A program made the translations under genes and the position numbers. From Nitrosopumilus sp. (GTDB lineage: Archaea; Thermoproteota; Nitrososphaeria; Nitrososphaerales; Nitrosopumilaceae): 64,000 nucleotides of DNA. Location: positions 62,001-126,000 of the forward strand of contig NZ_JAILWM010000004.1 in the NCBI RefSeq assembly GCF_025698945.1, given 5' to 3'. Positions 39,408-51,048 of the stretch are shown piece by piece. The stretch's first letter is position 1, and each line of letters starts with the position of its first letter. The notes beneath the pieces are model-generated. The model had not been told where the DNA came from. It ran no database searches and was given only the letters and a program-made list of their open reading frames with translations.

Positions 39408-40202
39408 TTGACTGGTAAACTATACATCGTCGGCGTTGGTCCTGGGCATCACGATCATATGACATTTAGAGCAAAAGAAGTAATTTTAGAAAGCGATACA
39501 ATTGTTGGATACGAAACTTATGTGAATCTAGTTCAAGATCTTATTGAAGGTAAAACAGTCTATCGTTATGCTATGACTCAAGAAGTAGAGCGAGCTCATC
39601 AATGTATTGATCTTGCTAAATCAGGAAAAATTGTTTCTCTTGTATCAAGTGGTGATCCAGGAATTTATGGAATGGCAGGATTAATTTATGAAACACTTGC
39701 TGAAGGAGGATGGAATCCTAAAGATGGTCTTCAAGTAGAAATAGTTCCTGGCGTATCAGCATTAAACTCATGTGCATCAATAGTTGGTTCACCATTAATG
39801 ACTGATTTTGCAGTTGTTAGTATGAGCGATTTATTAGTTCCTTGGGAAATTATTGAAAAAAGAGTAGAAGCTGCAGCACAAGGAGATTTTGTTATTGTAA
39901 TTTATAATCCTGCAAGCAAAAAAAGAATTCATCAATTACAAGATACAAGAAAAATTCTTTTAAAATATAGAAAACCTACAACTCCTGTTGCAATTATTAA
40001 AGGTGCATTTAGAGAATCTGAAACAATTGTTATGACTGATTTAGAGAACTTGCCAAATCATTCAGACAAATTAGGCATGATCAGTACAGTAATTATAGGA
40101 AATTCATCTACATACACCTACAAAGATTTGATGATCAATCCAAGAGGTTACAAATCAAAATACAATCTAGAAGAACAAACTAATCCAAATCTTAAAGTCT
40201 AA
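39408..40202 (+). CDS. cobJ: Precorrin-3B / cobalt-precorrin-3 C17-methyltransferase
   Basis: 264 residues, SAM-dependent tetrapyrrole methylase of the corrin ring-contraction step. GVGPGHHDHMTFRAKE, SSGDPGIYGMAGL and EIVPGVSALNSCASIVGSPL are diagnostic of CobJ/CbiH. TTG start. It stands alone here, with no other corrin-ring genes beside it. The 3' end overlaps tyrS by 4 bp. Confidence 0.93.
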   Translation: MTGKLYIVGVGPGHHDHMTFRAKEVILESDTIVGYETYVNLVQDLIEGKTVYRYAMTQEVERAHQCIDLAKSGKIVSLVSSGDPGIYGMAGLIYETLAEGGWNPKDGLQVEIVPGVSALNSCASIVGSPLMTDFAVVSMSDLLVPWEIIEKRVEAAAQGDFVIVIYNPASKKRIHQLQDTRKILLKYRKPTTPVAIIKGAFRESETIVMTDLENLPNHSDKLGMISTVIIGNSSTYTYKDLMINPRGYKSKYNLEEQTNPNLKV

Positions 40203-41829: not shown

Positions 41830-42408
41830 CTACTCATCTAAGCTTTTTCTGGGTTTGATGCTTAGATAAAATGCATGAGTACTAATGATAAATGCTGCAA
41901 GAAAAACTTTGGTTGCAAAAACTAAATTCCATGGCCGATCTGGATCTGGATAGGCAACTGATAATCTATCAATGTCTGGTACTATTCCATCCACAATTCC
42001 TGCAGTGATTTGTGCATTTAGAACTGTAAAATTGTATAATACTTCATAGAGTGTAATGATAGAAAATCCTAACAACATTAACTGAAGTAGAGCCATTCTT
42101 GTTCCGACTAACTTATTTCCTGCAGTTCGTCTCCACCCAATTCTAGAAACACAATACCATCCAATTATTGTTGAAAAAAATATCCAAGTTGAAACTCTAG
42201 CAAAATTTTCAAATGGAATTGTTGTATTGTGTATAGCTTCACCCATAACATAAGTGCCATTTTCTAACCATTCAACAGTGGTTACATAAACTCCAAAAAT
42301 TAGTGATGATATCATAATAAATCCACATACATAGAAAATATACAGATAAACTCTATATCCTGAATCTGTTTTTTCAAGATGACGTGGTTTCATAATGCCG
42401 TTTGCCAA
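41830..42408 (-). CDS. Four-helix membrane protein, function unknown
   Basis: 192 residues with about four membrane helices (roughly 22-44, 70-88, 105-128 and 160-180) and a basic C-terminus. ATG at 42408 (another at codon 6). Extracytoplasmic loops carry NGTY and NTT N-glycosylation-type sequons. No family recognised. Confidence 0.65.
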   Translation of the reverse strand: MANGIMKPRHLEKTDSGYRVYLYIFYVCGFIMISSLIFGVYVTTVEWLENGTYVMGEAIHNTTIPFENFARVSTWIFFSTIIGWYCVSRIGWRRTAGNKLVGTRMALLQLMLLGFSIITLYEVLYNFTVLNAQITAGIVDGIVPDIDRLSVAYPDPDRPWNLVFATKVFLAAFIISTHAFYLSIKPRKSLDE

Positions 42409-42475: not shown

Positions 42476-43558
42476 ATGAAAATTGCAATTAATGTCCCAT
42501 TAGTAGGCAAAGAAGAGATTGCTGAAGTAACTTCTATTCTTAAAAATGGAGCATTAACCTCGTCAGCAAATCAAGGGGGTAAATATGTCCAGAAATTTGA
42601 AAAATCTGCATCCTCTTTTGTAAAATCAAAATATGCAATTGCAGTCAACTCTGGTACAGCTGCTCTTCAAGCAGCACTATATGCATTAGATATCAAAAGA
42701 GGTGATGAGGTAATAGTTCCATCATTTACCTTTGTAGCAACTGCAAATGCGGTTATTTCAACTGGAGCAAAACCTGTTTTTGCTGATATACTAAAAGAGA
42801 ATTATACATTAGATCCTGCTGACGTTAAGAAAAAAATTACTAAAAAAACTCGTGCAATAATCCCTGTTCATCTTTATGGACACGTAGCAGATATAGAAGA
42901 ATTCTCAGAAATTTCTAACAAGAATAACATTCCAATTATAGAAGATGCTGCACAATCTTTAGGTTCAACTTACAAAGGAAAACACACTGGTACATTTTTT
43001 GAAATGGGATGTTATAGCATGTATCCAGCAAAAGTTATGACCGCAGGAGAAGGAGGATTTATTGTAACAAACAACAAAATGCTTAGAGATAAACTATTGA
43101 TGATCAGAAATCATGGAATGGTTAATGGTTATGATACCAAAATATTTGGTCTAAATTTACGATTACCAGAAATTAATGCTGCAATTGCAAATATACAAAT
43201 AAAAAAACTTCCAAAATTTTTGAAGATAAGAAAAAGTAATGCAACTTTATTATCAAAATTATTATCTGAACTTAAAATACAGCTTCCTTTATCACGAAAA
43301 AATGAAAATGTAAATTGGTATCTTTACACGATTGGAACTAACAAACAAACTCAGCTACTAAAAAAATTAAATCAAAAAGGAATTGGTGCAGCATCATATT
43401 ACCCCACACCGGTTCACAAAACTCCATTTTACAAATTAAAATCTAAACTTCCTGTTACTGACTGGGCAGCATCTCATGTAGTATCTTTACCAATTCATCC
43501 AAAAGTAACTGAAAAAAATATTGAATATATTGCAAAAACTGTTAGTGAAATACTTTGA
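42476..43558 (+). CDS. DegT/DnrJ/EryC1-family sugar aminotransferase
   Basis: 360 residues. PLP enzyme of nucleotide-sugar or surface-polysaccharide synthesis. NSGTAALQAALYALDI, EDAAQSLGSTYKG and the PLP Lys in SMYPAKVMTAGEGG are diagnostic. The C-terminal VVSLPIHPKVTE is normal. Its stop overlaps the TTG start of the MtrA-like gene by 4 bp, so the two are translationally coupled. Confidence 0.93.
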   Translation: MKIAINVPLVGKEEIAEVTSILKNGALTSSANQGGKYVQKFEKSASSFVKSKYAIAVNSGTAALQAALYALDIKRGDEVIVPSFTFVATANAVISTGAKPVFADILKENYTLDPADVKKKITKKTRAIIPVHLYGHVADIEEFSEISNKNNIPIIEDAAQSLGSTYKGKHTGTFFEMGCYSMYPAKVMTAGEGGFIVTNNKMLRDKLLMIRNHGMVNGYDTKIFGLNLRLPEINAAIANIQIKKLPKFLKIRKSNATLLSKLLSELKIQLPLSRKNENVNWYLYTIGTNKQTQLLKKLNQKGIGAASYYPTPVHKTPFYKLKSKLPVTDWAASHVVSLPIHPKVTEKNIEYIAKTVSEIL

Positions 43559-44031
43559 ATTCTCTAGGAGAAGCTATAGGAGAACTTTGTAAGGTAATTT
43601 TACCCATACCTGAGCACTATTTTATAGGAAATTCTGATTCATCTGTCTGTGTTTGCACGCTCTCAAGCATAGATCTTCTCAAAAAATTTGAAAATTCTGA
43701 AATTTTAAACCATATTTTCATGGTTGGAAGATTACTTTCTGAGAATAAAGGAATAGATTCCATTATTGAATTTGTAAATAAAAATCAAAAAATCAAAACA
43801 ATTATTGTTTGTGGAAAAGAAGTTTGGGGACACAAAGCAGGACACTCATTATTTGAATTACACAAAAATGGAATTGATGGTAATCAAAGAATCATTAATT
43901 CAACTAGTCCTGATCCAATCCTAACAGTTTCAAAATCTAAAATAAAACACTTTCAAGATAAAATTGAATTAGTAAATCTAATTAATGAAACAAATTTTGA
44001 AAAAATTATTCAAAGAATAAAAAATTACTAG
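43555..44031 (+). CDS. MtrA-like (tetrahydromethanopterin S-methyltransferase subunit A) domain protein
   Basis: 158 residues. The core GKEVWGHKAGHSLFELHKNG (20 residues, about 87-106) matches the corrinoid-binding region of methanogen MtrA (GxEVxGHxxGQ...LHxNG), including the His (H93) that ligates cobalt. The later RIINSTSPDPIL corresponds to MtrA's RIIGAxGxxP stretch. No other mtr subunits or methanogenesis genes are nearby. Soluble, without the C-terminal MtrA membrane helix. TTG start coupled to the DegT gene. Confidence 0.7.
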   Translation: MNSLGEAIGELCKVILPIPEHYFIGNSDSSVCVCTLSSIDLLKKFENSEILNHIFMVGRLLSENKGIDSIIEFVNKNQKIKTIIVCGKEVWGHKAGHSLFELHKNGIDGNQRIINSTSPDPILTVSKSKIKHFQDKIELVNLINETNFEKIIQRIKNY

Positions 44032-44381
44032 TATCCATTTCTCTGTCTTTCTCTGTTAATTTCGTTTTTTTTCTTGTATTCATCTAATATGTCATCTGGA
44101 GAAAGTTTCAATTCAAGTGATGCTTGTACAACAAAATGCCAAATATCTATCAATTCTTCTCTTGCTTCTGCCTCATCAAACTTTATTGGAGTTTTCCACC
44201 ATTTCCAATTTGTTGTACGCTGTAACTCAACTGCTTCATGCATAATTGCAGTACATAATGCAGAAACTCTTCCCTCCGTATCTTTTGGATATCTATCAAG
44301 TTTCATCATTTCAGAAAGTCCTTTTTGAAGTTTGAATATTTCTTCTAACCGATCTAATTTTTCAGACATTTCTTGAGACAA
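44028..44381 (-). CDS. Dimeric all-alpha dUTPase-like NTP pyrophosphatase
   Basis: 117 residues. HEAVELQ, WKWWKTPI, REELIDIWHF and YKKKNEINRERQRNGY give the metal-binding and substrate motifs of the dimeric dUTPase/MazG superfamily, which removes pyrophosphate from dUTP or related nucleotides. ATG start. Convergent overlap of 4 bp with the MtrA-like gene. Confidence 0.85.
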   Translation of the reverse strand: MSQEMSEKLDRLEEIFKLQKGLSEMMKLDRYPKDTEGRVSALCTAIMHEAVELQRTTNWKWWKTPIKFDEAEAREELIDIWHFVVQASLELKLSPDDILDEYKKKNEINRERQRNGY

Positions 44382-45910: not shown

Positions 45911-46393
45911 GTGGCTAGAATTAAACTCAAGCTAGGTGAAAATGAAATTGAAGTCGACTCTAGAGACTTCTATGTAGATAATCAAACATTAAGTGAAGTA
46001 ATTGACAGTCTTTCTCAACATCTACCTGAAAATCAAGCAAAACTAGTCTATGAGCCTGAATCTACTCAAAATTTACAAGTTGAGCATCCAGCAAAATATG
46101 GCTTAGAATATCTTGATGATGCTGAAGCATTTGAACCAGAATTTAATGAACCTAAACATATCCAATCACATGAAATCAAATCTAAATTAAGAATTTTAGA
46201 GACAAGTAGATTCTTTGATTCTCCTAGAACTGTTACTGAAACAGTTGAACAATTACGAGAATATGGTTGGGCTGCAAGTCCATTAGATGTATCAAAAGCT
46301 TTAGCAAAAATGGCATCAAACAAAGAAATTCTAAAAAATTCTAGTGAGAATAGAACACATTATTTTATTCAAGAACCCTTAGTAGCTAATTAG
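45911..46393 (+). CDS. Protein with C-terminal winged-helix-like region, function unknown
   Basis: 160 residues, acidic. The N-terminal RIKLKLGENEIEVDSRDFYVD may be a small beta domain. The C-terminal part (EIKSKLRILETSRFFDSPRT, ETVEQLREYGWAASPLDVSKAL) is like a winged helix without a clear DNA motif. GTG start. Resembles regulators seen in this lineage, but no family is recognised. The 3' end overlaps the convergent ribbon gene by 8 bp. Confidence 0.6.
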   Translation: MARIKLKLGENEIEVDSRDFYVDNQTLSEVIDSLSQHLPENQAKLVYEPESTQNLQVEHPAKYGLEYLDDAEAFEPEFNEPKHIQSHEIKSKLRILETSRFFDSPRTVTETVEQLREYGWAASPLDVSKALAKMASNKEILKNSSENRTHYFIQEPLVAN

Positions 46394-50337: not shown

Positions 50338-51048
50338 TTAAGCGTAATCAAGATCATCTTTGATCATTTCTTGAATACCATTCCAAGATTCATTTTTTTT
50401 ATCATCCCACTTTTCAAAATACACAACATCTTTCAAATCAAGTCTTGGTAACCATCCCGCAGTTTCAAGATCTGGTTTTTCTGCAAATTCATCAACATAA
50501 CCTAAACACAAGTATGCTACAGGAATTACATGTTCAGGTAATTCTAATGCATCCTTTAGTGCATCATTAGATAGAATACTTACCCATCCAAGTCCGACTC
50601 CTTCTGCTCTAGCTGATAGCCATAAGTTCTGAATTGCACAACAAACACTATACAATCCAGCCTCAGGAATACTAGATCTTCCTATAACAAATGGTCCAAA
50701 TTTAGTAGGATCATATGTTACACAAAGATTCACTGGAGATTCCAAAATTCCTTCTAATTTGAATGAAAGATATTTTGATCTCTTTGGTTCTTCAATTAAT
50801 TGTGATGAGCGATTCTTTTCTTCTTCAAATGATAATTTAATTTTCCTTTTTGTTTCTTCACTTTTTATTAAAATGAAATTCCATGGCTGTGAAAATCCTA
50901 CAGATGGAGCATGATGTGCTGCATGAAGGATTTTTGATAAAATTTCATCTTCTATGGGCTTTGATGTAAAATGAGTTCTAACATCTCTTCTTGAATAAAT
51001 TGCCTTATAGAAACCCCTTTTTTCATCTTCAGTAAAATCTTCAGTCAA
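50338..51048 (-). CDS. bluB: 5,6-dimethylbenzimidazole synthase-like protein (BluB)
   Basis: 236 residues, nitroreductase fold. FYKAIYSRRDVRTHF, AAHHAPSVGFSQPWNF and GLGWVSI are the BluB patterns. BluB converts reduced FMN to the lower ligand of cobalamin. Unlike many nitroreductases it keeps the SVGFSQPWN loop. Together with cobJ it fits cobalamin production by this organism. ATG start. Confidence 0.85.
   Translation of the reverse strand: MTEDFTEDEKRGFYKAIYSRRDVRTHFTSKPIEDEILSKILHAAHHAPSVGFSQPWNFILIKSEETKRKIKLSFEEEKNRSSQLIEEPKRSKYLSFKLEGILESPVNLCVTYDPTKFGPFVIGRSSIPEAGLYSVCCAIQNLWLSARAEGVGLGWVSILSNDALKDALELPEHVIPVAYLCLGYVDEFAEKPDLETAGWLPRLDLKDVVYFEKWDDKKNESWNGIQEMIKDDLDYA

Follow-up and report, generated by a model that had tools for sequence, protein, structure and literature searches.

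The product of the open reading frame at 43555-44031 was confirmed as a soluble single-domain MtrA (PF04208) protein. According to the reading best supported by the data, to which we assign a probability of roughly 0.4, it would be a base-off/His-on cobamide carrier of ammonia-oxidizing archaea (AOA) that is kept reduced by an oxidoreductase of the PPOX class. The gene was investigated together with its surroundings in a window of 64,000 nucleotides, the whole stretch of DNA analysed, with the following features.

39408..40202, + strand: CobJ/CbiH precorrin-3B C17-methyltransferase (TIGR01466, 308 bits, cut-off 246)
42476..43558, + strand: DegT/DnrJ/EryC1 aminotransferase, the upstream neighbour (PF01041, E 5.4e-113)
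43555..43558, + strand: 4-bp overlap (TTGA) of the DegT stop codon with the start of the MtrA-like gene
43555..44031, + strand: MtrA-like gene, 158 aa, TTG start, single PF04208 domain
43741..43746, + strand: codons of Glu63 and Asn64, by alignment Glu54 and Asn55 of MtrA
43831..43833, + strand: codon of His93, by alignment the cobalt ligand His84 of MtrA
44028..44381, - strand: all-alpha dUTPase (dUTPase_2), the convergent neighbour (PF08761, E 3.2e-17)
50338..51048, - strand: BluB, 5,6-dimethylbenzimidazole synthase (TIGR02476, 241.6 bits, cut-off 150)

The 4-bp overlap between the frames of DegT (42476-43558) and the MtrA-like protein (43555-44031) is present as originally described, and the assignment of cobJ and bluB in the same window is confirmed by TIGR01466 and TIGR02476 scores above cut-off; cobJ, a gene of the cobalamin pathway, lies 3.3 kb upstream of the MtrA-like gene. 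The MtrA-like and dUTPase genes overlap tail-to-tail by 4 bp. The TTG start is supported by the orthologues, since many of them have ATG at the same position. Two further window genes, encoding a membrane-like protein of 192 aa (41830-42408, - strand) and a protein of 160 aa (45911-46393, + strand), are conserved in Nitrosopumilaceae and syntenic in nearly all loci, and neither gave a Pfam or NCBIfam match.

The MtrA signature with His93, which the original prediction had read from the sequence, was recovered by profile search: PF04208 is the only Pfam match (E 1.4e-24, 87.1 bits compared to a cut-off of 25), no different family being assigned, and His93 aligns with His84 of MtrA. In a phmmer search of the PDB, methanogen MtrA was found (5laa, E 7.5e-17, also 8q3v, 5l8x and 9qtq) and the rest was noise; a profile built from 71 orthologues reached PDB MtrA with 5e-27. 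The AlphaFold2 model (pLDDT 90, pTM 0.82) is of low confidence only in the N-terminal ~20 residues. With this model the top seven Foldseek matches were all MtrA, the best being 5l8x/5laa (E 3e-14 to 1e-13, TM 0.76–0.79), and cobalamin-bound MtrA 5laa was matched with a TM of 0.76–0.77 and a probability of 1.00, so that the predicted structure belongs to the Rossmann-type MtrA fold. The absence of a membrane anchor was likewise borne out: no membrane helix was found over the 158 aa (maximum 19-residue hydropathy 0.96), and the C-terminus coincides with the end of the MtrA soluble domain.

Fold and domain boundaries are the same as in MtrA of the Na+-pumping methyl-H4MPT:CoM methyltransferase of methanogens (PDB 5L8X, 5LAA, 8Q3V, 9QTQ), and the equivalents of His84, Glu54, Asn55 and Gly57 are common to both. 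In contrast, the AOA protein is only 25–33% identical to MtrA of the complex, is devoid of the C-terminal membrane helix and has the meander GAIPY replaced. The equivalog model for MtrA of the Mtr complex, TIGR01111, gave 77 bits compared to its cut-off of 249; the best NCBIfam model was NF002126 (PRK00964.1-4) with 143.8 bits, under the cut-off of 161. Comparable proteins are the cytoplasmic MtrA homologues such as that of Methanothermus fervidus (5LAA), which are likewise soluble, single-domain, shorter than 215 aa and equipped with the ligand histidine (PMC4915002). The AOA protein has this length, this histidine and no membrane segment, and belongs with these already known homologues as a variant. 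It differs from them in its aerobic host, in its PPOX partner in three families and in an identity of ~30%: the methanogen cytoplasmic members are 60–97% identical to methanogen membrane MtrA (PMC4915002), whereas 28–33% to 5LAA/5L8X was found here. The MtrA domain and the His/Glu pair are also shared with the MtrA-DUF4346 proteins (NF002128/PRK00964.1-6) found in bacteria and in Thermoproteota (e.g. L109), the identity being 37.5% for the MtrA domain of a Planococcus plasmid protein; these proteins have, in addition, a Cys-rich part at the N-terminus and a PterinBD-DUF4346 domain at the C-terminus, both missing in the AOA protein. Two such proteins with Cys-rich N-terminal part and His/Glu motif are encoded on plasmids of Planococcus kocurii (L190:464-1840) and Paraburkholderia (L191:5665-6846).

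The residues around the cobalt were compared in 71 AOA orthologues that are 37–83% identical to the window protein. In the crystal structure of MtrA, His84 is the cobalt ligand and is hydrogen-bonded by Glu54, a pair used in methyl transfer; Asn55 contacts a corrin propionamide, Thr53 and Gly57 contact the nucleotide tail, which is also held by Asn64 and a Tyr18/Val61 sandwich, and the meander reads 109-GAIPF/Y (PMC4915002). His93 (=84), Glu63 (=54), Asn64 (=55) and Gly66 (=57) are invariant in all 71 orthologues, and a loss of the ligand in orthologues, which would have spoken against the original prediction, was thus not observed. The equivalent of Thr53 is Ser or Thr throughout, with the hydroxyl kept. 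The equivalent of MtrA Asn64 is changed to Tyr, His or Phe and that of Tyr18 is variable; the meander is replaced by SPDP in most Nitrosopumilaceae and is still methanogen-like in some f3 sequences, e.g. GAKGPYPFL. Judged from the alignment, the cobalt end looks intact while the nucleotide-tail and energy-coupling ends look altered, which fits corrinoid binding without a sodium pump. Binding of a corrinoid by the protein is predicted to be likely.

To follow the distribution of the gene, 81 genomes of the order were analysed, with AmoA detected by PF12942. Archaeal AmoA was found in 30 of them, and it is present in each of four families: Nitrosopumilaceae (f1) and the other three AOA families f2, f3 and f56. 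Of these 30 genomes, 29 have the AOA-type MtrA, the exception being a genome of 67% completeness, and this type was not found in the AmoA-negative genomes of the sample. Five further MtrA matches came from AmoA-negative genomes (f64, f65); they are 256–259 aa long and much nearer to the Pfam profile, and the three of them included in the tree were placed outside the AOA clade. In the tree the AOA sequences all group in a single clade (support 99/97), so that the distribution reflects one inheritance and not repeated association with ammonia oxidation; a recent horizontal gain was rejected on the same grounds. The gene is under purifying selection, with dN/dS (NG86) values of 0.08–0.24 over twelve orthologue pairs. 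Pairs in which DegT is missing are included and still constrained (L039/L046, w 0.135; L020/L042, w 0.171). Since His93 and Glu63 are invariant in the 71 orthologues and dN/dS is this low, the ligand pattern is not due to chance. Among the sampled Nitrosopumilaceae, an intact gene was undetected in four genomes: G168 holds remnants only (L125:1387-1501), G295 a frameshifted pseudogene (L126:1095-1490), and G108 and G082 no MtrA-like copy at the locus. The pseudogene and the remnant represent natural losses inside the genus.

In 16 of the 18 f2, f3 and f56 loci a gene for a PPOX-class oxidoreductase of 130 aa lies directly upstream on the same strand, with a gap of -85 to +65 bp. The protein is a PNPOx-like split barrel (PF01243, E 1e-17); its model is nearest to 5jv4, 3db0 and 6eci, of which the top match is an F420-binding protein, with FMN and FAD binders scoring alike, and its scores are under all TIGR036xx/04023 cut-offs. 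The family includes F420H2-dependent enzymes, e.g. biliverdin reductase, and AOA make F420, with FDOR-family proteins reported as abundant in Nitrososphaera proteomes (PMC8498797). The Nitrosopumilaceae homologue, 53% identical to the f2 PPOX, is unlinked (G000:C1:565612-565998), while in G029 of the same family it is found 7 kb from the MtrA-like gene. Homologues also occur in relatives that have no MtrA-like gene, and a strict dependence of PPOX on MtrA was rejected for this reason. For the same two reasons, the unlinked f1 homologue and the MtrA-less relatives, the gene order is suggestive, and no more than that, of PPOX as the ancestral operon partner. Directly upstream of the PPOX-MtrA pair in f56, an ArsA/Get3-like ATPase is encoded (L176:6703-7878, L175:310-1485). 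The B12 adenosyltransferase CobO (PF02572) stands divergently beside the gene or the pair in seven of ten f3 loci and is confined to that family; in L097 it adjoins the MtrA-like gene without PPOX. MetK, CbiD, CbiG and CbiX are located within several kb in a subset of f3 loci.

Corrinoid proteins with a Co(I) state in their cycle undergo occasional oxidation, which is more frequent in aerobes, and depend on a reductant; Co(I) is likewise required for adenosylation by enzymes of the CobO type. Flavin-dependent corrinoid reductases, those of the CobR type among them, are small flavin-type enzymes that serve a corrinoid, and by functional analogy the PPOX-MtrA pair may work in the same way. The MtrA-like protein would bind the corrinoid base-off/His-on, with His93 as ligand and Glu63 supporting it in the manner of MtrA, and would carry cobamide in an aerobic cell outside any Mtr complex. 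It does not belong to such a complex, since it lacks the membrane anchor and the meander sequence of methanogens, and MtrH is absent as well. The PPOX-class enzyme (FDOR-B-like, with flavin or F420) would reduce the bound cobalt again, and the reduced corrinoid could then be passed to CobO, to MetH, or into a methyl transfer of its own.

The main rival to this reading is a methyl shuttle, in which a methyl group from methyl-tetrahydrofolate, delivered via MetH or another pterin-binding protein, would be transferred to cob(I)alamin and on to an acceptor, analogous to MtrA between MtrH and coenzyme M, with PPOX reactivating occasional Co(II). We consider it possible but doubtful. The His/Glu pair of the MtrA methyl transfer is kept without exception in the AOA protein, and core methionine synthases are predicted to take the methyl group from MtrA in methanogens (PMC7857596). 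However, a PF02007 search detected no MtrH in the window genome G000 or in the other sampled genomes of the four AOA families, so that for MtrH the statement that a Mtr partner is lacking in this non-methanogen holds, and an MtrA-MtrH methyltransferase was rejected. Pterin_bind occurs at two places only in the window genome, the C-terminal half of MetH and one dihydropteroate synthase. A MetE-type core methionine synthase (PF01717) was not found there, whereas a split MetH is present (S-methyl_trans in a protein of 320 aa, Pterin_bind in a frame of 840 aa); methionine synthesis hence proceeds without need for the MtrA-like protein, and an MtrA-MetE route was discarded as a requirement. With neither MtrH nor a MetE domain, the protein has no Mtr complex and no core methionine synthase to serve.

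Of the two uses initially considered, a corrinoid for another methyl transfer or the fold for something else, the second is made less likely by the invariance of His and Glu. A corrinoid-free role of the MtrA fold, as a structural or regulatory Rossmann domain, would agree with the partial loss of the nucleotide-tail contacts, and in L102/L122, from another lineage, a related MtrA domain that is joined to a thymidylate synthase domain is without the histidine, from which it follows that such reuse does occur in the family. A constant His93/Glu63/Asn64 set would, however, be superfluous for a purely structural role, and in f3 and f1 the gene is near cobalamin genes, making this role improbable in AOA. 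Fusions of this type, with the MtrA-fold domain N-terminal to the thymidylate synthase domain, were observed in non-AOA Thermoproteota (L102:7913-9412, L104:4517-5725); that of L102 also carries PterinBD-DUF4346. A thymidylate link, as the dUTPase neighbour and these fusions might indicate, was dropped, since AOA have their own ThyX-like protein. It is further weakened by the missing histidine of the fused domain and by the dUTPase gene, which is convergent and, within f3, adjoins the MtrA-like gene at no more than half of the loci (L094, L097, L170, L172, L173). The AOA ThyX (G000:C1:306714-308057) is one frame of 542–561 aa with two Thy1 (PF02511) matches in nine of nine genomes with a match; in G082 no ThyX was found.

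The proposed functional coupling to the DegT aminotransferase was not supported. In Nitrosopumilaceae synteny extends over the entire block cobJ-tyrS-TM192-DegT-MtrA-dUTPase-PfkB, and adjacency of DegT therefore carries little information. Examination of its conservation revealed that the DegT-MtrA pair hardly occurs outside this family and that DegT is not adjacent in f2 and f3. In six loci (L013, L020, L031, L039, L042, L046) DegT is lost or reduced to its ends with the MtrA-like gene kept; in L020:5790-6010 and L031:5770-6010 an internal deletion leaves the first and last stretches of DegT and an intact MtrA-like gene downstream. Conversely, in L125 and L128 DegT is kept and the MtrA-like gene lost. 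With these independent losses the coupling was rejected, and DegT is a secondary, dispensable association. The f56 locus L176, in which DegT is followed by an ArsA-like ATPase, PPOX and MtrA in this order, suggests a way in which DegT became the direct neighbour of MtrA in f1. Joint synthesis of a modified (e.g. N- or C-methylated) cell-surface amino sugar by both proteins, in line with the 4-bp overlap, the synteny across most Nitrosopumilaceae and the position of DegT two genes upstream of the PPOX-MtrA pair in L176, is highly improbable and already largely refuted by the loss of each gene without the other, the synteny being that of the region as a whole.

According to the literature, AOA are major marine producers of cobalamin, made by an anaerobic-type route, and the B12 enzymes named for them are methionine synthase, ribonucleotide reductase and methylmalonyl-CoA mutase, the MtrA-like protein being unmentioned in the passages considered (PMC4303638). 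A literature search, with subscription journals mostly outside its range, found no paper on an MtrA-like protein common to AOA or on its pairing with PPOX. As a candidate for a fourth corrinoid protein, nearly universal in AOA and with an ancestral redox partner, the MtrA-like protein would have consequences for our picture of how AOA use B12, and also F420, whose role in AOA is unsettled (PMC8498797). In its widest form, that a corrinoid system made up of PPOX and a stand-alone MtrA was inherited by all AOA, with a split-barrel enzyme dependent on F420H2 or flavin reducing or reactivating the carrier-held cobalamin under oxic conditions, the proposal is speculative and rather unlikely as a whole. 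If true, it would add a B12 protein beyond MetH, ribonucleotide reductase and methylmalonyl-CoA mutase, and an MtrA that is used without MtrH. A methanogenesis-type module survives in aerobic archaea.
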